Source: Mycobacterium sp. UM_CSW
GTDB lineage: Bacteria; Actinomycetota; Actinomycetes; Mycobacteriales; Mycobacteriaceae
Reading direction: 5' to 3'
Length of the DNA: 64,000 nt
Assembly: GCF_000455205.1 (NCBI RefSeq)
Contig: NZ_AUWQ01000011.1
Coordinates: 55,848-119,847 of the forward strand
The notes beneath the pieces were generated by a model. The model was not told the DNA's origin, did no database searches, and worked only from the letters and a program-made list of their open reading frames with translations. Shown here one piece after another: positions 6,182 through 60,720 of this stretch (position 1 is the first letter of the stretch; the number at the start of each line of letters is the position of its first letter). The translations under genes and the position numbers were made by a program.

Positions 6182-8923
6182 CTAGTGCGCGGCCGCATCC
6201 CAGCTGCGGCCGTAGCCGACCGAGACCTCGAGCGGGACGTCGAGCGGGTAGGCGCCGCCCATCTTCTCGCGCGCCAGCGCCTCAAGGACCTCTCGCTCAC
6301 CAGGCGCGACTTCGAACAACAGTTCGTCGTGCACCTGCAGCAGCATCCGGGAAGCCAGCCCGGCCTGCTTGATGGCCTTGTCGACCTCGATCATGGCGAC
6401 CTTGATGATGTCGGCCGCGCTGCCCTGGATGGGCGCGTTGAGCGCGGCCCGCTCGGCGGCCTCCCGGACCTGGCGATTGCTGCTGTCCAGCTCGGGCAGG
6501 TAGCGGCGGCGGCCCAGCACCGTGGAGGTGTAGCCGTCCTTACGCGCCTGCTCCACGACGTCCATCAGGTAGTCACGCACGCCTCCGAACCGGGCGAAGT
6601 AGGCGTCCATCTGGTCCTTGGCTTCCTCGGTGGAGATCTTCAATTGCTGCGACAGCCCGTAGGCGCTCAAGCCGTAGGCCAGCCCGTACGACATCGCCTT
6701 GACCCGCCGGCGCAGCTCGGCGGTGACCTCCTCGATCGGCACGCCGAACGCTCGGGATGCGACGAACGAGTGCAGGTCCTCCCCGGTGTTGAACGCCTCG
6801 ATCAGGCCTTCGTCCCGCGACAGGTGCGCCATGATCCGCATCTCGATCTGGCTGTAGTCCGCCGTCATCAGCTCGGCATAGCCCTTGCCGACGACGAACC
6901 CGTCCCGGATCTGCCGGCCTTCCTCGGTGCGGATCGGGATGTTCTGCAGGTTGGGCTCCGTCGACGACAGCCGGCCGGTCGCCGCGATGGTCTGGTTAAA
7001 CGTGGTGTGGATGCGCCCGTCGGCGGCGACCGAGTTCAGCAGCCCGTCGACGGTGACCTTGAGCCGGGTGACGTCGCGGTGGGCCAGCAGGTGCTGCAGG
7101 AACGGGTGCCCGGTCTTGTCGAACAGCGACTGCAGGGCGTCGGCGTCGGTGGTGTAGCCCGTCTTGGTCCGCTTGGTCTTCGGCATCCCGAGCTCGTCGA
7201 ACAGCACCACCTGCAACTGCTTGGGCGAGCCCAGGTTGATCTGCTTGCCGATCACGGCGTCGGCCGCCTCGGCGGCGTCGCGGATCTGGTCGGCGAACTG
7301 GCTCTGCAGCTCGCCCAGCAGGCGCAGATCGACGGCGATGCCGGCACTTTCCATTTCGGCCAGCACGTGCTGCACCGGCAGCTCCATCTCGCCCAGCAGC
7401 GCGGTGGAGTCGATGCGATCCAGCTCGGCGTCCAGCGCGTCGGCGAGGTCGACGACGGCCCGGGCCCGCAGGATCAAGGTCGCGACGGCCTGCTCGTCCA
7501 CCCCCTCCATGTCGTCGAGCAACGAAAGCTGTTGCTGCTCAGGGGTTTCCGCGCGCAGTTCGCGGCGCAGGTAGCGCAGCGACAGGTCGTCGAGGGTGAA
7601 GCTGCGCTGCCCGGGGCGCACCAGGTAGGCGGCCAGCGCGGTGTCGGAGGTGACGCCGTTCAACGTCCAGCCGCGGCCCGCCAGGTCGTGGATGGCGAGC
7701 TTGGCCTCGTGCAGCGCTTTGGGTTTCGAGGGGTCGGCCAGCCAGGCCGCCAGCGCGGCGTCGTCGTCGGGGGTCAGCGTCGCGGTGTCGATGTAGGCGC
7801 CGTCGCCGTCGGCGGCGGCGATGCCCAGCCCGGTGGCGTCCCCGCCGTGCGGCAGGTGGGTGCCCGCGACGGCCAGCCCCGCCCGGCGCCCGTCGCCGGC
7901 GTGCGCGGCCAGCCATTGCCCGACGGTGCCGGGCTCGAGCGCGTCGCCGCGCACGTCGAAGCCCTCGTCGACCTCGGGCTCGACGGCGACCAGGGTCTCG
8001 AACAGCCGGTCGCGCAGCACCCGGAACTCCAGGTCGTCGAACAGCCGGTGGATCTGGTCGCGGTCCCAGGGCTGCAGCCGCAGCGTGTCCGGGGTTTGGG
8101 CCAGCGGCACGTCTTTGACGAGATCGGTGAGCTCGCGGTTGCGGATGACGCTGGCCAAGTTGGCGCGCAGCGCGTCGCCCACCTTGCCGCGGACCGAGTC
8201 GACGTTGTCGACCAGCGCCTGCAGGGAGCCGTATTCGGCGATCCACTTCGAGGCGGTCTTCTCCCCCACCCCGGGAATGCCGGGCAGGTTGTCGCTGGGA
8301 TCACCGCGCAGCGCCGCGAAGTCGGGGTACTGCCGCGGGGTCAGCCCGTACTTTTCCACGACGGCCTCGGGCGTGAAGCGGGTCAGTTCGCTGACGCCCT
8401 TGCGCGGATACAGCACCGTGACGTCGTCACTGACGAGTTGCAGGGAGTCGCGATCACCGCTGACCACCAGCACGCGGTAGCCCTCGTTCTCGGCCTGGGT
8501 GGCCAGCGTCGCGATGAGGTCGTCGGCCTCGAATCCCGGCTCCGAGAGCACCGTGATGCCCAGCGCGTTGAGCACTTCCTTGGTGATGTCGATCTGGCCG
8601 TGGAATTCGTCCGGCGTCGACGATCGGTTGGCCTTGTACTCGGGGTATCGCTCGGAGCGGAAAGTCTGCCGCGACACGTCGAACGCCGCGGCGATGTGCG
8701 TCGGCGCCTCGTCGCGCAGCAGGTTGATCAGCATGGCGGTGAAGCCGTAGACCGCGTTCGTGGTCAGCCCGCCGCGGGTCTTGAAGTTCTCGGCCGGCAG
8801 CGCGTAGAACGCCCGGAACGCCAGCGAATTGCCGTCCAGCAGCATCAGAGTCGGCTTGATTTGGTCCTCGGTGGCGAGGGCTGCGGAATCTGCCTTGTCG
8901 CCGGCGGTCCTTGCTGGGCTCAC
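6182..8923 (-). CDS. polA: DNA polymerase I
   Basis: 913 residues from a GTG at 8923 (reading MSPARTAGDKA). The N-terminal 5' nuclease domain (about residues 25-310) keeps its acidic metal ligands, for example LDGNSLAFRAF. A middle 3'-5' exonuclease-like domain lacks proofreading signatures, as in other mycobacterial PolA. The polymerase domain has motif A DYSQIEMRI and motif C QVHDELLFE. A longer start (ATG at 8941) is open, but a TAGAGT -10 box 7 nt before the GTG and family alignment favour 8923. It repairs gaps and processes Okazaki fragments, and heads the polA-rpsA-coaE run. Confidence 0.96.
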   Translation of the reverse strand: MSPARTAGDKADSAALATEDQIKPTLMLLDGNSLAFRAFYALPAENFKTRGGLTTNAVYGFTAMLINLLRDEAPTHIAAAFDVSRQTFRSERYPEYKANRSSTPDEFHGQIDITKEVLNALGITVLSEPGFEADDLIATLATQAENEGYRVLVVSGDRDSLQLVSDDVTVLYPRKGVSELTRFTPEAVVEKYGLTPRQYPDFAALRGDPSDNLPGIPGVGEKTASKWIAEYGSLQALVDNVDSVRGKVGDALRANLASVIRNRELTDLVKDVPLAQTPDTLRLQPWDRDQIHRLFDDLEFRVLRDRLFETLVAVEPEVDEGFDVRGDALEPGTVGQWLAAHAGDGRRAGLAVAGTHLPHGGDATGLGIAAADGDGAYIDTATLTPDDDAALAAWLADPSKPKALHEAKLAIHDLAGRGWTLNGVTSDTALAAYLVRPGQRSFTLDDLSLRYLRRELRAETPEQQQLSLLDDMEGVDEQAVATLILRARAVVDLADALDAELDRIDSTALLGEMELPVQHVLAEMESAGIAVDLRLLGELQSQFADQIRDAAEAADAVIGKQINLGSPKQLQVVLFDELGMPKTKRTKTGYTTDADALQSLFDKTGHPFLQHLLAHRDVTRLKVTVDGLLNSVAADGRIHTTFNQTIAATGRLSSTEPNLQNIPIRTEEGRQIRDGFVVGKGYAELMTADYSQIEMRIMAHLSRDEGLIEAFNTGEDLHSFVASRAFGVPIEEVTAELRRRVKAMSYGLAYGLSAYGLSQQLKISTEEAKDQMDAYFARFGGVRDYLMDVVEQARKDGYTSTVLGRRRYLPELDSSNRQVREAAERAALNAPIQGSAADIIKVAMIEVDKAIKQAGLASRMLLQVHDELLFEVAPGEREVLEALAREKMGGAYPLDVPLEVSVGYGRSWDAAAH

Positions 8924-8930
8924 GGCCCTA

Positions 8931-8936
8931 ACTCTA
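8931..8936 (-). promoter_or_regulatory. -10 box TAGAGT for leaderless polA
   Basis: TAGAGT on the minus strand lies 7 nt upstream of the GTG at 8923, the spacing of a mycobacterial leaderless promoter. It falls inside the alternative longer reading frame, which argues against the ATG at 8941. Confidence 0.55.
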
Positions 8937-8952
8937 GGCATCCCTCATGACA

Positions 8953-9240
8953 TCAAGTCAGCGGCCGCTCGGCGCCCACGTCGTACTCGGAAACCGACGC
9001 GCGAACGATCGAACCCTGTTGTTCATCGCTGGGCCCGGCGCCGCGGAATGCATCGACGGCCGCCCGCGACTCCCAGCGTTCGAAGATGTCGATGCGACTC
9101 GGATCGAGCAGGTCGGCGCTGATCGCGAAGTCGAGGCAGCCCGGGGTTCGGCGGGCTTGCTGCACCACTGCCCTACATCCGGTCAGATAACTGTCTCGCC
9201 GAAGTGGCTCCACGACAAGGTAACCCGCGACGATCACCAT
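8953..9240 (-). CDS. antibiotic-biosynthesis-monooxygenase (ABM) fold protein
   Basis: 95 residues with the small alpha-beta barrel pattern of ABM/dimeric ferredoxin-like proteins: an initial strand (MVIVAGYLVV), a middle RRTPGCLDFAIS segment, and a FERWESRAAVDAFR helix. These proteins act as small cofactor-free mono-oxygenases, heme-degrading enzymes or stress proteins; the substrate cannot be told here. The ATG at 9240 is preceded by AAAGGAG, which decides against an upstream in-frame start at 9291. It ends 29 bp before polA and shares its strand, but polA has its own promoter. Confidence 0.8.
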   Translation of the reverse strand: MVIVAGYLVVEPLRRDSYLTGCRAVVQQARRTPGCLDFAISADLLDPSRIDIFERWESRAAVDAFRGAGPSDEQQGSIVRASVSEYDVGAERPLT

Positions 9241-9326
9241 TTGACGCTCCTTTCGTTGCATCAAAGCTCTGCCCGATTTGACCGTCGACACCCGCCAAAG
9301 TCATCGGTGCAACGCCGCGGCGGAAC

Positions 9327-9340
9327 TGCAACACGTTTCA
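9327..9340. promoter_or_regulatory. KstR-type operator
   Basis: TGCAACACGTTTCA matches the TNNAACNNGTTNNA pattern recognised by the cholesterol-catabolism repressor KstR, and the symmetry extends to ACTG...CAGT on both sides. It lies 20 nt upstream of the -10 box of the DUF35-thiolase pair. From memory, the M. tuberculosis orthologues Rv1628c-Rv1627c are listed in the KstR regulon. Confidence 0.7.
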
Positions 9341-9359
9341 GTTTTGTATTGGGGCTGGG

Positions 9360-9365
9360 TAGTCT
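9360..9365 (+). promoter_or_regulatory. -10 box TAGTCT, leaderless promoter of the DUF35-thiolase operon
   Basis: TAGTCT is followed by 6 nt and then the GTG at 9372, the geometry of a leaderless mycobacterial promoter. The KstR-type operator sits just upstream, overlapping the expected -35 region. Confidence 0.55.
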
Positions 9366-9371
9366 GGCCGG

Positions 9372-9815
9372 GTGCCCGAGGTCACCAGCCAACAACCCGC
9401 GATCGACGGATGGTTCGCCACCGACGACGCCGGTAATGCCCATTTGATCGGCAGCAAGTGCCCCGAGTGCGGCACGTATGTCTTCCCGCCGCGCGAGAAC
9501 AACTGCCCCAACCCGGCGTGCGCCAGCGACACGCTGGAGCCGGTCGCGTTGTCGACCCGGGGGACGCTGTGGAGCTATACCGAGAACCGGTATCCGCCGC
9601 CGGCGCCCTACCCCGCCCCGGACCCCTTCGAGCCGTTCGCCATCGCGGCGGTGGAGCTGGCCGAGGAGGGGCTGATCGTGCTGGGCAAGGTCGTCGAGGG
9701 CACGCTGGCCGAGGATTTGAAGGTCGGCATGGAGATGGAGCTGACCACGATGCCGTTGTACACCGACGACGACGGCGTGCAGCGCCTCGTCCATGCGTGG
9801 AGGATCTCGTCATGA
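9372..9815 (+). CDS. DUF35 OB-fold/zinc-ribbon acyl-CoA-binding partner of thiolase
   Basis: 147 residues. The N-terminal rubredoxin-like zinc ribbon has CPEC (residues ~36-39) and CPNPAC (~54-59), followed by an OB fold (LSTRGTLWSYTENRYPPP onward). DUF35 proteins pair with thiolase-like or hydratase subunits and supply an acyl-CoA-binding surface, notably in steroid side-chain degradation. The orthologue of Rv1628c. The stop overlaps the ATG of the thiolase gene by 4 bp (ATGA), indicating a stoichiometric partner. A KstR-type operator precedes it, consistent with sterol metabolism. Confidence 0.9.
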   Translation: MPEVTSQQPAIDGWFATDDAGNAHLIGSKCPECGTYVFPPRENNCPNPACASDTLEPVALSTRGTLWSYTENRYPPPAPYPAPDPFEPFAIAAVELAEEGLIVLGKVVEGTLAEDLKVGMEMELTTMPLYTDDDGVQRLVHAWRISS

Positions 9816-55701: not shown

Positions 55702-56742
55702 TTACAGGCTGGCGTTGAGCGCCTTGATCGGCATCTGCAAATCCTGCAGCAGTTCCAGATCCGCCTCGGCGGGGCGCCCGAGCGTGGTCAGGTAGTTCCC
55801 GACGATCACCGCGTTGATGCCGCCTAGGATGCCCTGCTTGGCGCCGAGATCACCCAGCGTGATCTCGCGCCCGCCGGCAAAGCGCAGCATCGTGCGCGGC
55901 AACGCCAGCCGGAAGGCGGCGACCGACTTCAATGCCTCGCTGACCGGCAGCACTTCCAGGTCGCCGAACGGGGTGCCCGGCCGCGGGTTCAGGAAGTTCA
56001 GTGGCACCTCGTCGGGCCCGAGCTCGGCCAGGTCGGCCGCGAACTCCGCGCGCTGCTCCAGGGTTTCGCCCATGCCGAGGATGCCGCCGCAGCACACCTC
56101 CATGCCGGCGTCGCGCACCATCGACAGCGTCTCCCAGCGCTCTTCCCAGGTGTGGGTCGTCACGACGTTGGGGAAGAACGAGCGGGCCGTCTCCAGGTTG
56201 TGGTTGTAGCGGTGCACGCCCATCGCCGAGAGCTGCTCCACCTGCTCGGCGCTCAGCATCCCCAGCGAGCAGGCGATGTTGATCTCGACCTCGTCGCGGA
56301 TCGCCTCGATGCCGGCCGCGACCTGCGCCATCAACCTCTCGTCGGGGCCGCGGACCGCGGCCACGATGCAGAACTCGGTGGCGCCCGACTTGGCCGTCTG
56401 CTTCGCCGCCTCGACCAGGCTGGGGATGTCGAGCCGCGCGCTGCGCACCGGCGACGAGAACAGCCCGGACTGGGAGCAGAAGTGGCAATCCTCCGGGCAC
56501 CCGCCGGTCTTGAGGCTGATGATGCCCTCGACCTCGACCTCGGGGCCGCACCAGCGCATCCGCACCTCGTGGGCCAACGCCAGCAGCTCCTCGAGCCGAT
56601 CGTCGGGCAGCTGCAGCACCCGCAGCACCTGGTCGCGGGTCAGGCCCTCGCCGCCGTCGAGCACCTGCCGGCGGGCCACCGCGAGGATGTCGTCGTTCGA
56701 GTCGTCGGCGTCGGTCGTCGGCCGAGTTGCCGCTTGAGTCAC
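55702..56742 (-). CDS. bioB: biotin synthase
   Basis: 346 residues, radical-SAM enzyme that inserts sulfur into dethiobiotin. The 4Fe-4S cluster motif is CPEDCHFC (CxxxCxxC); [12 protein letters not shown] and the conserved arginine/cysteine positions of the 2Fe-2S site ([27 protein letters not shown]) are present. GTG at 56742 follows GGGGAG. It leads bioB-bsaP-DUF2567 and is divergent from a membrane-protein operon. Confidence 0.97.
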
Positions 56743-56806
56743 CAGGTACTCCCCTGCATCTTTTTGCGTGCGCGCGCACCCGCACCTGCCATTCGTGATG
56801 GCAGCC

Positions 56807-56822
56807 TGAACAAATCGGTTCA
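56807..56822. promoter_or_regulatory. TGAAC-N6-GTTCA inverted repeat upstream of bioB
   Basis: TGAACAAATCGGTTCA, 65 bp before the bioB start and 62 bp before the membrane operon. It resembles the TGAAC...GTTCA operator of BioQ-type biotin repressors of corynebacteria and mycobacteria, but with a longer spacer than I recall. Confidence 0.4.
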
Positions 56823-56883
56823 AAGTAGGGTAACGGCCTCCGAGGGAGGGGACAGACGGGGTCCGCCGGGGTATGTCTGATCA

Positions 56884-57075
56884 ATGACTGTTTGGGAGGC
56901 CCAGGCGCACGTCGAGTACCTGGCCCACCACATGCTGCTGCTGGCGATCCCCGCCTTCCTGCCGGCGATCGTGGTGGTCGGCGTCATCCTGTACGTCGCG
57001 CTGAGAGACCGCCGCAACGGCGGCGACGCTGGTGTGAACCAGCAAAGCGACGCCGCCGACAAAAAGCGTGATTGA
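56884..57075 (+). CDS. small single-pass membrane protein
   Basis: 63 residues: a short amphipathic N-terminus (MTVWEAQAHVEYLAHHMLLL), one transmembrane helix (LAIPAFLPAIVVVGVILYVAL) and a charged tail rich in Arg, Asp and Lys. Three histidines lie just before the helix. It is 78 bp before the large membrane protein and runs in the same direction, so it is probably a small accessory subunit of that complex. No family is recognised. Confidence 0.7.
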   Translation: MTVWEAQAHVEYLAHHMLLLAIPAFLPAIVVVGVILYVALRDRRNGGDAGVNQQSDAADKKRD

Positions 57076-57153
57076 CGGGCCCTGGATCGGGGCATTCCGG
57101 TTCCTGCGAGCTGCATCACAGCTCGCCAGGCTGCGGTGCAGGAGGGTTTGACG

Positions 57154-58992
57154 ATGAAATCGGCGGAACTCACTTTTGTGGCCGAGGCGCCGGCGCGCGG
57201 CGCCGGCCTCAACCAGGTGATCGGACTGTCGATCGCCGCCGTGGTGATCGGCGCGGCCATGCTGTGGATCGGTTATGCGCACCGCACCCACCGCATCGAG
57301 TGGTTGACCCGCATCGCCGACAAGATGGGCGAAAAGTTCCACCGCCCCAACTGGGTGGCCCTACCGGTCCTGATCTTCACCACGTTCATCATCTGCGCCC
57401 TGTTCGGGTTCATCTGGGACGTCAGCTGGCACATCGGCAACGGCCGCGACCCCGGCCCGCTGGCGAACCCGGCGCACTACTTCATCATCATCGGCCTGTT
57501 CGGGATCTTTGTCGCGGGCATGTTGGCGATCGTGCTGCCGTTCGACCGGCCCGGCCCGGCGGCGGTGCGCATCACGCGTAACTGGTATGCGCCGGTCGGC
57601 GGGATTTTGATGGCGGGCTGCGGGTTGTACGCGATGATCGGGTTTCCGCTCGACGACATTTGGCACCGCATCTTCGGGCAAGACGTAACCCTTTGGGGCC
57701 CAACGCATTTGATGATGATCGGCGGAGCTTGCTTTTCCCTTTTCTCGGTGCTGATCCTGGAGCGCGAGGGCGAGGCCCACGAGGGCGCGGAGGTCTTCCA
57801 CGGCCCGTTCATCACATTCCTGCGCTACCTGTCCTTCGGCGGTCTGTTCATCGGGCTGTCCGTCTATCAGATCGAATTCGACTTCGGCGTCCCGCAATTC
57901 CGGCTGGTATTCCAGCCGATGCTGATCGCCGCGGCGTCCGCGCTGGCGGCGGTTGCCGCCCGGCTGACCATGGGGCGCGGCGGCGCGGTAATCGGGGCCT
58001 TGTTCGCCGTCGCGCTGCGGGGCCTGGTCGCGTTGCTGGTCGGGCCCATCCTGGGCGCGCCGATCAACTGGTTCCCGCTCTATGTGGGTCCGGCGCTGGT
58101 CGTCGAGCTGGTGGCGCTGACACCACTCCTCAAGCGCCCCATCGCTTTTGGTGCCGTCTCCGGCCTCGGCGTGGCGACCGTCGGGCTGTGGCTGGAGTCG
58201 CTGTGGATCGGCGCGGTGTACCACTACCCGTGGCCGACGAGGATGTGGGGCGAGGCGCTGGCGATGTCGGTGCCCGTGGCCGTGCTGACCGGGGTGTGCG
58301 GAGCGATGTTCGGGATGGTGCTCACCGGACAGCGGCTGCCGGGGCGCCGGGTCGGCATCGCCGCGGTGGTGTTGACGGTGTTGGTGATCGGCGCCGCGGT
58401 GGCCAACGGTTTGCACATCTTGGTCCCGAGCCACAACACCGCCACCGTCACGCTGACCGACCAGCCCAGCCAACCGGGGCGGCGGATGGTCTCGGCGGAC
58501 GTGCAGCTCACCCCGCCGTTCGTCAGCGACCATCCGGAGTGGCTGACGATCCTGTCCTGGCAGGGCCGCATGGAGAACAACCGCGGCCTGATGATCGACC
58601 GACTGGAGAAGGTCGGTCCGGGGCACTACCGGTCGACCCAGCCGGTCCCCGTGTGGGGCGAGTGGAAGACGCTGCTGCGGGTGCAGGACGGCCGCACGAT
58701 GACGGCCGTGCCGATCTGGGAGCCCGCGGACGACGCCATTCCGGCACCCGAGGTTCCCGCGCTGGCGCAAAGCGTGCGGCCGTTCGTCCTGGAGGTCACG
58801 ATCCTGCAGCGCGAACGCGACCAGAGCGCGCCGGCCTGGTTGTTCACCGCGGGCGGCATCGTGGTGCTGATCCTGACCCTGATGGTGATCAGCGCGCTGA
58901 CGTGGGGCGCCGGCCGGCTGAACAACAGCGAGAAATCGCCGGAGCCGGTCGAGGAAAAGCAGCCCGTGCCGGGCGCTCCCAGGGCGGCCTAG
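57154..58992 (+). CDS. polytopic membrane protein with a duplicated D-x3-H ... P-x-H motif and a C-terminal outer domain
   Basis: 612 residues, roughly ten to eleven transmembrane helices. Two helix-loop-helix units carry the same pattern: D89-VSW-H93 ... R98-D99 ... P106-A-H108 and D167-DIW-H171 ... Q176-D177 ... P183-T-H185. After the helices, about residues 420-545 form an outside domain (PFVSDHPEWLTILSWQGRME, GHYRSTQPVPVWGEWKTLLR) of YtkA/FixH-like appearance, then a final helix and charged tail. The His/Asp clusters suggest metal binding. No family is recognised; function unknown. ATG at 57154 follows GGAGGG; a GTG at 57136 is possible. Confidence 0.75.
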   Translation: MKSAELTFVAEAPARGAGLNQVIGLSIAAVVIGAAMLWIGYAHRTHRIEWLTRIADKMGEKFHRPNWVALPVLIFTTFIICALFGFIWDVSWHIGNGRDPGPLANPAHYFIIIGLFGIFVAGMLAIVLPFDRPGPAAVRITRNWYAPVGGILMAGCGLYAMIGFPLDDIWHRIFGQDVTLWGPTHLMMIGGACFSLFSVLILEREGEAHEGAEVFHGPFITFLRYLSFGGLFIGLSVYQIEFDFGVPQFRLVFQPMLIAAASALAAVAARLTMGRGGAVIGALFAVALRGLVALLVGPILGAPINWFPLYVGPALVVELVALTPLLKRPIAFGAVSGLGVATVGLWLESLWIGAVYHYPWPTRMWGEALAMSVPVAVLTGVCGAMFGMVLTGQRLPGRRVGIAAVVLTVLVIGAAVANGLHILVPSHNTATVTLTDQPSQPGRRMVSADVQLTPPFVSDHPEWLTILSWQGRMENNRGLMIDRLEKVGPGHYRSTQPVPVWGEWKTLLRVQDGRTMTAVPIWEPADDAIPAPEVPALAQSVRPFVLEVTILQRERDQSAPAWLFTAGGIVVLILTLMVISALTWGAGRLNNSEKSPEPVEEKQPVPGAPRAA

Positions 58993-58996
58993 CTCG

Positions 58997-59359
58997 ATGA
59001 CGGTTCGCCGTGCCCTCGTCACCGCGTGGGCGGCCGCGCTGACGTGCGGGCTCGTCGCCTGCGGCGGTTCGCAGCCCCAGTCGCCCGCCGCGGCCCCCGT
59101 CGTGGACGTCACCATCGCCAAGGGCCAGGTCACCCCGACCAACGCCACGCTGCAGGCCAAGGTGCACCAGCAAATCACCCTGCGGGTCACCAGCGACGCG
59201 CCCGACGAGTTACACGTGCACTCGACGCCCGACCACAAGTTCCCGGTCGCGGCCGCGGCCGGCCAAACCTTCCAGTTCAGCGTTGACGTCCCGGGAAACG
59301 TCGAGGTCGAACTGCATCACCTGGACCGCACGATCGCGACGATCCAAGTCCAGCCGTGA
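58997..59359 (+). CDS. cupredoxin-like lipoprotein
   Basis: 120 residues. A signal peptide ends in the lipobox LVAC (C22), so the mature protein is lipid-anchored outside the inner membrane. The remainder reads as a cupredoxin beta sandwich: KVHQQITLRVTSDAPDELHVHS, FQFSVDVPGNVEVELHHL and IATIQVQP. Histidines in ELHVH and ELHHL could bind copper; no cysteine ligand is seen, so it is not a classic blue copper site. It starts 4 bp after the large membrane protein and overlaps the next gene (GTGA). Confidence 0.82.
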   Translation: MTVRRALVTAWAAALTCGLVACGGSQPQSPAAAPVVDVTIAKGQVTPTNATLQAKVHQQITLRVTSDAPDELHVHSTPDHKFPVAAAAGQTFQFSVDVPGNVEVELHHLDRTIATIQVQP

Positions 59360-60720
59360 GCGCCGCCGGCGCGACGACGGTGCTCGCGCACGGCCTGGGC
59401 GGCTCAGGCGACCTCCCGGTGCCGTACCTGTACGCGATGGTCGGGGCGGCGTGGGCCCTGACGTTCACGTTCGCGCTGGTCGCGTTCGCGTGGCGGCGGC
59501 CCCGGTTCGATCCGGACAAGCCCGGCCGCCCGCTGCCGTCGGCGCTGACCTCGTTTGTCGACGCCCGGGCGACCCGCTGGACGGCGGCCGGGCTGGCGTT
59601 GGCGTTCGCGGTGTGGGTGGTGTCGGCCGGGCTGTGGGGTCCGCGGTCGGAGTCCAACGCCCTGCTCGGGGCGTTCTACGTGCTGCTGTGGGTCGGGCTG
59701 GTGGCGGTGTCGTTGTTATTCGGCCCGGTATGGCGAGTGATCTCGCCGATGCGCACGGTGTATCTGCTGCTGCGGCGCGTGATGCCGGCGCGCCTCGGCC
59801 GGCCGCGGTGGTCCTACCCCGAGGGCTGGGGCTATCGGCCGGCGGCGCTGGGCCTGTTCGCGTTCGTGTGGATGGAGCTGGCCAGCCCCAACTCGGCGTC
59901 GCTGCCGCTGGTCCGGGCGTGGCTGGCGACCTATGCGGCGCTGATGCTGGTCGGGGCGTGGCTGTGCGGGCAGCGGTGGCTGGCCCGGGCCGACCCGTTC
60001 GGCGTGTACAGCATGGCGGTTTCCCGGCTCTGCCCGTTTCGGCGCCGCCCGGCCACCGGCGAGATCGTCGTCGGGAATCCGCTCGACCACCTGCCGTCGC
60101 TGCCCGTGCGGCCCGGGGTGGTCGTGCTGCTGGCGGTGCTGCTCGGGTCGACGGCGTTCGACAGCTTCTCGTCGTCGCCGACGTGGCGGGGATTCGCCGA
60201 CGAGGTTTCGCGTGGCTTCGGCCTGGCGCCGACGCTGTCGTCGTCCCTATTGCGCACGGTCGGGCTGATCGTGTTCATTTCCGTTGTGGCGGTGACGTTT
60301 TCACTTGCGGCGCGCGCCACCGGCGGCGTCGACCGCGAGCAACGCCGCGCCCTGCCCGGGCGGATGGCGCATTCGCTGATCCCGATCGTGGTGGGCTACA
60401 TCTTCGCGCACTACCTGTCCTACCTCGTCGAGCGCGGCCAGCAGGCGGTGTTCGCCCTGGCCGATCCGTTCGGCCGCGGCTGGAACCTGTTGGGGCTGGC
60501 GCATTGTCACGTCGCGTACGTGCTGTCGGCGCATCCCCCGCTGCTCGCCGGCATCAAGGTGGCATCGGTGGTGACCGGGCACATCGTGGCGGTGGTCGCC
60601 GCCCACGACCGCGCCCTGCGGCTGCTGCCGGCCGGCCATCAGCTCACGGGGCAGCTGACCATGATGCTGGTCATGGTCGGCTACACGTTCACCGGCCTGT
60701 ATCTGCTGTTCGGCGGTTAG
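59356..60720 (+). CDS. histidine-rich polytopic membrane protein
   Basis: 454 residues with about ten to eleven transmembrane helices. Histidines cluster in the last third: H339, H352 (AHYLSYLVERGQ), H383-C384-H385, H393, H409, H417 and H428. Several fall within or at the ends of helices, a heme- or metal-binding pattern. GTG at 59356 overlaps the lipoprotein stop, so these are obligate partners. I do not recognise the family; a cytochrome-like or copper-handling role is the working idea. Confidence 0.75.
   Translation: MSAAGATTVLAHGLGGSGDLPVPYLYAMVGAAWALTFTFALVAFAWRRPRFDPDKPGRPLPSALTSFVDARATRWTAAGLALAFAVWVVSAGLWGPRSESNALLGAFYVLLWVGLVAVSLLFGPVWRVISPMRTVYLLLRRVMPARLGRPRWSYPEGWGYRPAALGLFAFVWMELASPNSASLPLVRAWLATYAALMLVGAWLCGQRWLARADPFGVYSMAVSRLCPFRRRPATGEIVVGNPLDHLPSLPVRPGVVVLLAVLLGSTAFDSFSSSPTWRGFADEVSRGFGLAPTLSSSLLRTVGLIVFISVVAVTFSLAARATGGVDREQRRALPGRMAHSLIPIVVGYIFAHYLSYLVERGQQAVFALADPFGRGWNLLGLAHCHVAYVLSAHPPLLAGIKVASVVTGHIVAVVAAHDRALRLLPAGHQLTGQLTMMLVMVGYTFTGLYLLFGG

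Follow-up and report, generated by a model that had tools for sequence, protein, structure and literature searches.

A four-gene mycobacterial unit with a main protein resembling a distant, fused CuMMO

Copper membrane monooxygenases (CuMMOs) catalyse the first step by which methane and ammonia are oxidised aerobically, and those known consist of separate subunits C, A and B. A four-gene unit is present in many mycobacteria, and its main membrane protein resembles a very distant, fused CuMMO. In the copy described here, which lies in a 64-kb window (the whole stretch of DNA that was analysed), the 612-aa product of the second gene has two Asp/His/His site motifs, both complete and of the type found in PmoC/AmoC. 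We propose, with a probability of about 0.55, that this product is a deeply diverged CuMMO relative in a single chain, acting as a membrane oxidase, with genes 3 and 4 as its copper supply and gene 1 as an accessory.

Organisation and distribution of the unit

In the list of open reading frames of the window, four frames follow one another on the plus strand with intergenic gaps of 78, 4 and −4 bp (Table 1), which bears out the original prediction of four same-strand frames, the last three of them 4 bp apart or overlapping. Gene 2 starts at an ATG with AGGAGG ahead of it, and the operon adjoins bioB.

Table 1. Positions of the four genes and of the parts of the gene 2 product in the window
Feature	Positions	Strand	Details
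Gene 1 (P0001)	56884..57075	+	63 aa, one hydrophobic segment
Gene 2 (P0002)	57154..58992	+	612 aa, 12 hydrophobic segments, single-chain CuMMO-like membrane protein
Gene 2 residues 60-216, PmoC/AmoC-like membrane domain	57331..57801	+	hhalign against 10 PmoC
Gene 2 residues 89-108, CuC-like motif D89-x3-H93-x14-H108 with R98	57418..57477	+	conservation in relatives
Gene 2 residues 167-185, CuD-like motif D167-x3-H171-x13-H185	57652..57708	+	Asp where PmoC has Asn227
Gene 2 residues 217-392, AmoA-like helical bundle	57802..58329	+	predicted fold only
Gene 2 residues 425-552, periplasmic beta domain, FixH/CrdA-like	58426..58809	+	
Gene 2 residues 561-592, C-terminal membrane anchor	58834..58929	+	model helix 561-592, hydropathy
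Gene 3 (P0003)	58997..59359	+	120 aa, cupredoxin-like lipoprotein
Gene 4 (P0004)	59356..60720	+	454 aa, polytopic, GTG start

Homologues of genes 2, 3 and 4 are present in 77 of 80 named mycobacterial loci, a count in which gene 4 is cut by a contig end in L086 and broken in L121, and a gene 1 homologue is present in 72 of the 80. Gene 1 precedes gene 2 in the window's group; Mycolicibacterium-type loci have it between genes 2 and 3. Across 118 genomes of the genus, gene 4 lies within 4 kb of 79 of the 83 near-full-length gene 2 copies, the two genes occur together in 79 of 79 genomes, and gene 2 has no match in 36. The unit of gene 2 and gene 4 sits in several different chromosomal contexts. 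Joint conservation, the point at which the original prediction had declared itself open to attack, was checked, and the genes do travel together in mycobacteria. In more distant Actinomycetota, by contrast, the large gene 2 occurs with no other member of the set detectable beside it, and genes 3 and 4 turn up where gene 2 is absent.

Site motifs and domains of the gene 2 product

The CuC ligands of PmoC are given as Asp156, His160 and His173, with Arg165 as a neighbour, and the CuD ligands as Asn227, His231 and His245, in the account of PMC12576850. In 39 relatives of gene 2, which were grouped by BLAST alone and are mostly long forms, the CuC-like D89, H93 and H108 are kept in 37, 38 and 38, respectively, and R98 in 36. 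The CuD-like D167, H171 and H185 are kept in 38, 37 and 38, so that Asp replaces the Asn of the CuD site in 38 of 39 while the two histidines are retained. The six ligand positions all fall within the 36 invariant columns of 26 aligned long forms, and in a mixed set of 55 members the twelve invariant columns include them, a count that is partly by construction because 24 of the 55 were chosen through the motif pattern. All 10 PmoC sequences carry D-x3-H-x12-H and N-x3-H-x13-H at 71–74 residues from each other. Such a double motif is present in 64 of 66 family ORFs; among the ORFs of 150 aa or more that our own gene caller predicted, none of the 1067 other distinct ones has it.

Profile comparison by hhalign against the 10 PmoC sequences detected homology to subunit C with three sets, namely 5 short relatives (P 3.2e-7), 15 short relatives (P 9.8e-5) and the 39 mostly long ones (P 6.9e-4); the 26 long forms alone gave a weak profile score (P 0.003). 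A 55-member mix, chosen partly by motif, reached Prob 79.4 and P 1.5e-5 over 147 columns with both motifs in register, and the reversed PmoC control scored Prob 1.1. Both motifs are likewise in register across the separately built sets. In Pfam, P0002 has no AmoC match at E 1 (cut-off 26.7 bits), and matches appear in only 2 of 55 relatives, the best at a sub-threshold 15.4 bits; the short relative L063 has a sub-threshold AmoC match (E 0.012) over the two-motif stretch. Foldseek returned no hit for gene 2, and no curated family scored above threshold. A transporter-family match, which the original prediction had named as evidence against itself, was looked for, and none of any strength appeared.

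In the predicted model, the stretch behind the PmoC-like domain (residues 217-392) has AmoA chains as the top two of 998 chains (9cl6 chain B and 9pxf chain D), and its sequence-profile similarity to PmoA/AmoA is undetectable. The C-like, A-like and beta parts share one reading frame, rather than occupying separate genes, usually in the order C-A-B. No subunit B bearing the CuB histidines and a pair of cupredoxin-like domains was found; specifically, the PmoB profile gave no match to the C-terminal part of gene 2, and Pfam did not name PmoB in any of the four genes. In the short subfamily, 6 of 15 loci have a neighbour composed of a signal peptide, a beta domain, two membrane helices and a further beta domain, which is the PmoB topology.

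Copper-side genes and competing readings

Gene 3 has the lipobox LVAC (read by eye) and a weak match to Cupredoxin_1 (PF13473; E 7e-5), at 23.2 bits below the cut-off of 27 bits. Its metal-ligand set is conserved, with H73, H75 and E105 in 17 of 17 sequences and H107 in 14 of 17, and this H-x-H...E-x-H arrangement is presumably not a type 1 copper set. In gene 4, H12, H352, H409 and H417 are invariant in 31 of 31 diverse homologues; its description as histidine-rich fails, as its 10 His make up 2.2%, against a mean of 2.5% for 52 window ORFs. Homologues of gene 4, with or without gene 3, lie near SCO1 (L190, L201 and, by BLAST cluster, L193), CtaG (L185, L196 and L204), COX1 (L185) and COX3 (L204), and homologues of genes 3 and 4 also lie near CopC in other genomes. 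The products of both genes probably handle copper. The earlier suggestion of an enzyme or copper-handling complex thus stands in its broad sense, on the PmoC/AmoC-kind motifs of gene 2 and on the copper-delivery and cytochrome-oxidase neighbours of gene 3 and 4 homologues; it missed the monooxygenase kinship, and the set is not obligate in distant Actinomycetota.

These neighbourhoods also lend something to a different view, in which the CuMMO-like protein serves copper homeostasis rather than oxygenation, as a membrane store, sensor, relay or cuprous-ion oxidase; its partners in copper import, export or detoxification would be the lipoprotein and the polytopic protein. Relatives on named plasmids, whose surroundings also speak for the single-chain CuMMO reading, adjoin copper or metal genes: heavy-metal P-type ATPases, a metal-sensitive regulator, a four-helix copper-binding protein and a multicopper oxidase in Leifsonia; a cupredoxin protein, an HMA protein and a P-type ATPase in Streptomyces mirabilis; and CopC, COX III and an oxidase assembly protein in M. 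vanbaalenii JOB5. Additionally, the gene 3 and 4 homologues form a general copper-side module. However, no resistance genes were seen near the window operon or in the laid-out mycobacterial loci (families read by eye), no copper genes are in view by the short relatives next to aldolase-like genes, and none are annotated near a weak Rubrobacter match. Two full site motifs, a second-sphere Arg in the long forms and an AmoA-like part also exceed the needs of a store, and we consider homeostasis an unlikely role.

Less probable by a good margin is a role of the operon in assembling a copper respiratory oxidase, whose CuA or CuB would be loaded by genes 3 and 4 together with CtaG and SCO1, while gene 2 would be a subunit that transfers copper. 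The SCO1, CtaG, COX1 and COX3 neighbourhoods of gene 4 fit such a role, but no gene 2 turned up at those loci, and the window operon has bioB rather than oxidase genes beside it. The 36 genomes without a gene 2 match also speak against this role, as an oxidase is a necessity for aerobic mycobacteria. Convergence of the two Asp/His/His motifs in a membrane protein unrelated to the CuMMOs, such as a transporter, is the least probable reading: it could appeal to the weak score of the long form alone against PmoC and to the missing Foldseek and curated-family hits, but it would have to produce motifs in register in separately built sets, a double motif seen in none of the 1067 other ORFs and a predicted AmoA fold directly behind the PmoC-like part.

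Proposed function and comparison with known systems

Taken together, these findings favour the single-chain CuMMO relative. Judged from its sequence, the first part of gene 2 would form a domain resembling PmoC/AmoC, in which the two Asp/His/His metal sites lie at membrane-helix ends; in the predicted model an AmoA-like bundle and a membrane-anchored beta domain follow it. The sites would hold copper, and the protein may activate O2 on a small or lipophilic substrate as a membrane oxidase. The gene 3 lipoprotein would bind copper outside the membrane via H-x-H...E-x-H, and gene 4 may pass copper on, or take it up, via its invariant histidines; in other actinobacteria their relatives may serve cytochrome oxidase, as the neighbourhoods suggest. 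By analogy with the archaeal AmoX/Y/Z described in PMC10030591, gene 1 may be a small single-pass accessory subunit.

More tentatively, the family could represent a separate CuMMO architecture that combines the C, A and periplasmic parts in a single chain, has its own copper-supply pair and, across mycobacteria and many other Actinomycetota, oxidises a substrate so far unassigned to them, such as a trace gas, a short hydrocarbon or a membrane lipid, and the short relatives with separate beta-domain genes could be intermediate stages in building methane and ammonia monooxygenases. Which of CuC and CuD the CuMMOs need is disputed, and the proposed oxidase, if confirmed, would allow the question to be put to a simpler system of one chain. 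Such a branch, widespread and unannotated, with the copper sites of subunit C joined to an A-like part, would also be informative about how CuMMOs arose, and mycobacteria would gain a candidate copper oxidase or copper-handling complex.

Like PmoB/AmoB, gene 2 has a membrane-anchored beta domain, although a single one, and part of the short subfamily has the neighbour of PmoB topology; in contrast, the beta domains resemble FixH/YtkA/CrdA. PmoD, as described in PMC6189053, is likewise a small cupredoxin-like copper protein encoded alongside a membrane complex, whereas P0003, a lipoprotein, has the site H-x-H...E-x-H and does not have the Cx7MxHxnC set given there, because it has no Met past the start and no Cys past the N-terminal leader. 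Unlike PmoA/AmoA, the A-like part of gene 2 is fused to the C-like part. The divergent archaeal proteins of Ca. Angelarchaeales reported in PMC9038741 were accepted as CuMMOs although the identity of their C subunits to known ones is only 14.2% (bacterial) and 20.8% (archaeal); they are encoded by separate C-A-X-B genes with AmoB site histidines, whereas gene 2 is fused and the B subunit is missing. From PmoC/AmoC/HmoC (PF04896), gene 2 differs in the Asp for Asn of its second site, in staying under the Pfam cut-off and in a longer chain that runs on into the AmoA-like part and the beta domain, yet it shares with them the motifs D-x3-H-x12(-14)-H and (N/D)-x3-H-x13-H (71–87 residues apart in the gene 2 family), an Arg five residues past the first His in most gene 2 relatives, and the W-H, R-D and P-x-H flanks.

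Conservation and setting of the four-gene set

The original prediction had described four genes encoded in one direction, all of which were found in the window as described. Gene 3 follows gene 2 after 4 bp and overlaps gene 4 by 4 bp. The genome containing the window comprises 6.39 Mb. Among the matches listed, the locus of Mycobacterium sp. E796 is closest to that in the window (99% in gene 2), next sp. 1245805.9 (96%), followed by M. terramassiliense and M. paraense (91%).

Coordinates of features in the window and at the second gene 4/gene 3 copy
Feature	Coordinates	Strand	Remark
Presumed bioB (name from the original prediction)	55702-56823	minus	divergent, on the other side of the operon
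Gene 2 start	57154	plus	ATG, AGGAGG upstream
L204 (from the genus), second gene 4/gene 3 copy	G011:C1:1343000-1359500, 7494-9666		without gene 2

The genes form a conserved unit. A scan of named genomes for gene-2 relatives gave at least 589 coding stretches; the best 80 of these are all named as Mycobacteriaceae (identity 62-99%), with genes 3 and 4 both present in 77 loci and gene 1 in 72. Of the three loci outside the 77, L096 is truncated at a contig end; L134 and L152 are surplus copies, the full set being present in their assemblies at L098 and L124. In the genus sample, gene 2 was matched in 82/118 genomes (E 0.001) and gene 4 in 88/118 (E 1e-20). With three genomes holding only short relatives or fragments left out, 83 near-full-length gene-2 matches, four with stops within the matched frame, are spread across 79 genomes; gene 4, broken in a few of these (e.g. 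G074, G091), lies within 4 kb of a gene-2 copy in all 79 genomes and for 79 of the 83 copies. Gene 2 is absent nearby at 20 of the 99 gene-4 places. Mycolicibacterium-type loci have the order 2-1-3-4 and neighbour genes different from those beside the set in the window, indicating that the four genes travel together. At L121 (M. genavense), G089:C72, G074:C1 and G091:C200, one or both of genes 2 and 4 are broken or survive only as fragments; G089 is a reduced genome of 3.2 Mb.

In the phylum sample, gene 2 was matched in 35 and gene 4 in 54 of 296 genomes. Genes 2, 3 and 4 occur together in 11 of the 40 loci fetched, of which L039 alone lies outside the family, and genes 2 and 4 were matched at separate places in six further genomes (G162, G171, G196, G235, G254, G385). 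In six distant Actinomycetota loci (L049, L050, L053, L057, L058, L061), a gene of cluster c3 adjoins the gene-2 relative or is found close by; in L050, L057 and L058 this gene resembles a MerR-type regulator by eye. Canonical PmoC genes occur in the Actinomycetota genomes G130, G145 and G158 (L075-L077), with PmoA adjoining in L075 and L077; G145 additionally has a gene-4 homologue.

Putative metal-site motifs of gene 2 and comparison with PmoC

Judged by its sequence, gene 2 carries a PmoC-type double site. PmoC reference proteins, obtained via Pfam AmoC and from named plasmids, have the motifs D-x3-H-x12-H and N-x3-H-x13-H. These correspond to the pMMO CuC ligands Asp156, His160 and His173, with Arg165 nearby, and the CuD ligands Asn227, His231 and His245, according to PMC12576850. 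The counterparts in P0002, the gene-2 protein, are D89, H93, R98 and H108 at the first site and D167, H171 and H185 at the second. PmoC and several short relatives have x12 between the two His of the first motif, long relatives x13-14; distant relatives show two similar patterns, W-D-x2-W-H-x4-R-D...P-x-H and D-x2-W-H-x3-G-x-D...P-x-H. Among 39 BLAST-grouped relatives, the six ligand positions are kept in 37-38 and R98 in 36. All six are among the 36 invariant columns of 26 aligned long forms, and they make up half of the only twelve in a 55-member mix, 24 members of which were picked by motif pattern. Among ORFs from a simple purpose-made gene caller, the double motif occurs in 64/66 of the family and 10/10 PmoC, and in 0/1067 further distinct ORFs (150 aa or longer).

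Profile-profile comparisons with 10 PmoC support homology of gene 2 to PmoC at the sequence level. P was 3.2e-7 for 5 short relatives, 9.8e-5 for 15 short relatives, 6.9e-4 for 39 relatives (mostly long), 4e-4 for a partly motif-picked 20-sequence mix and 1.5e-5 for the 55-member mix with its 24 motif-picked members (Prob 79.4, 147 columns); the 26 long forms gave 0.003 with one motif only aligned. Short and long sets matched each other at P 1.4e-45. As controls, reversed PmoC gave Prob 1.1, and 141 hydrophobic ORFs gave a best P of 0.021 (39-member set) and 0.002 (20-sequence mix). Among 25 membrane-family profiles, the best for the 55- and 39-member sets were two beta-domain partner families (P 0.003-0.007), followed by 0.056 and 0.077; the best for the 15 short relatives was 0.021. 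One partner family, s1, may be genuinely related over gene 2's beta slice, since it aligns with that part (P 0.0025). Pfam AmoC matched L063 (E 0.012) and L064 (E 0.23) over the two-motif stretch, under the Pfam cut-off.

Copper-related neighbourhoods and genes 3 and 4

Six plasmid loci with gene-2 relatives were examined for neighbours. The Leifsonia and Streptomyces mirabilis relatives are surrounded by heavy-metal ATPases and copper proteins, and the M. vanbaalenii JOB5 relative adjoins CopC, COX III and an oxidase assembly protein. TlpA, CcdA and a BlaI/MecI/CopY regulator lie near the M. chubuense NBB4 relative, and a BlaI/MecI/CopY-type regulator and a YHS protein near that of M. aubagnense; the Rubrobacter locus, a weak match (17% of query), showed no such copper-related neighbours. 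These neighbourhoods support copper in the gene-2 protein and fit an enzyme and a homeostasis protein alike. At L237, L239, L243 and L251, a short gene-2 relative stands beside one recurring gene set including an aldolase-like gene (by eye), with copper genes absent from view.

Gene 3 was detected beside gene 4 in 9 of 20 fetched gene-4 loci, L204 being the one from the genus. Whether gene 3 is present or not, the neighbours of gene 4, named with the help of Pfam, include SCO1 (L190, L201; L193 by BLAST cluster), CtaG (L185, L196, L204), COX1 (L185), and COX3 and CopC (L204), which points to copper delivery. The surroundings of L204 also include a TlpA-like gene, and a gene-1-like protein (by eye) accompanies its gene 4/gene 3 copy.

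Counting the window protein, P0003 (gene 3) homologues keep H73, H75 and E105 in 17/17 and H107 in 14/17, and P0004 (gene 4) homologues keep H12, H352, H409 and H417 in 31/31. H12 follows A-H-G, which by eye resembles a signal-peptide end in several relatives. PmoB has a processed N-terminal His, which H12 after the putative signal-peptide end recalls.

Relation to copper membrane monooxygenases

The predicted fold indicates an AmoA-like bundle and a C-A-beta order in gene 2. We infer copper occupancy and an oxidase function for its protein, and likewise the roles of genes 1, 3 and 4. The literature searched contained no description of this gene-2 system. At L080, L081 and L083, amoC lies on Methylocystis and Nitrosomonas plasmids, with amoA/amoB unannotated in the stretch shown of an incomplete plasmid gene table. 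Whereas a copper membrane monooxygenase (CuMMO) has a second-site Asn in subunit C, PmoB and separate genes, the gene-2 system lacks all three and is for this reason not classed as a CuMMO; the gene-2 protein is nevertheless related to CuMMO and may work like one.
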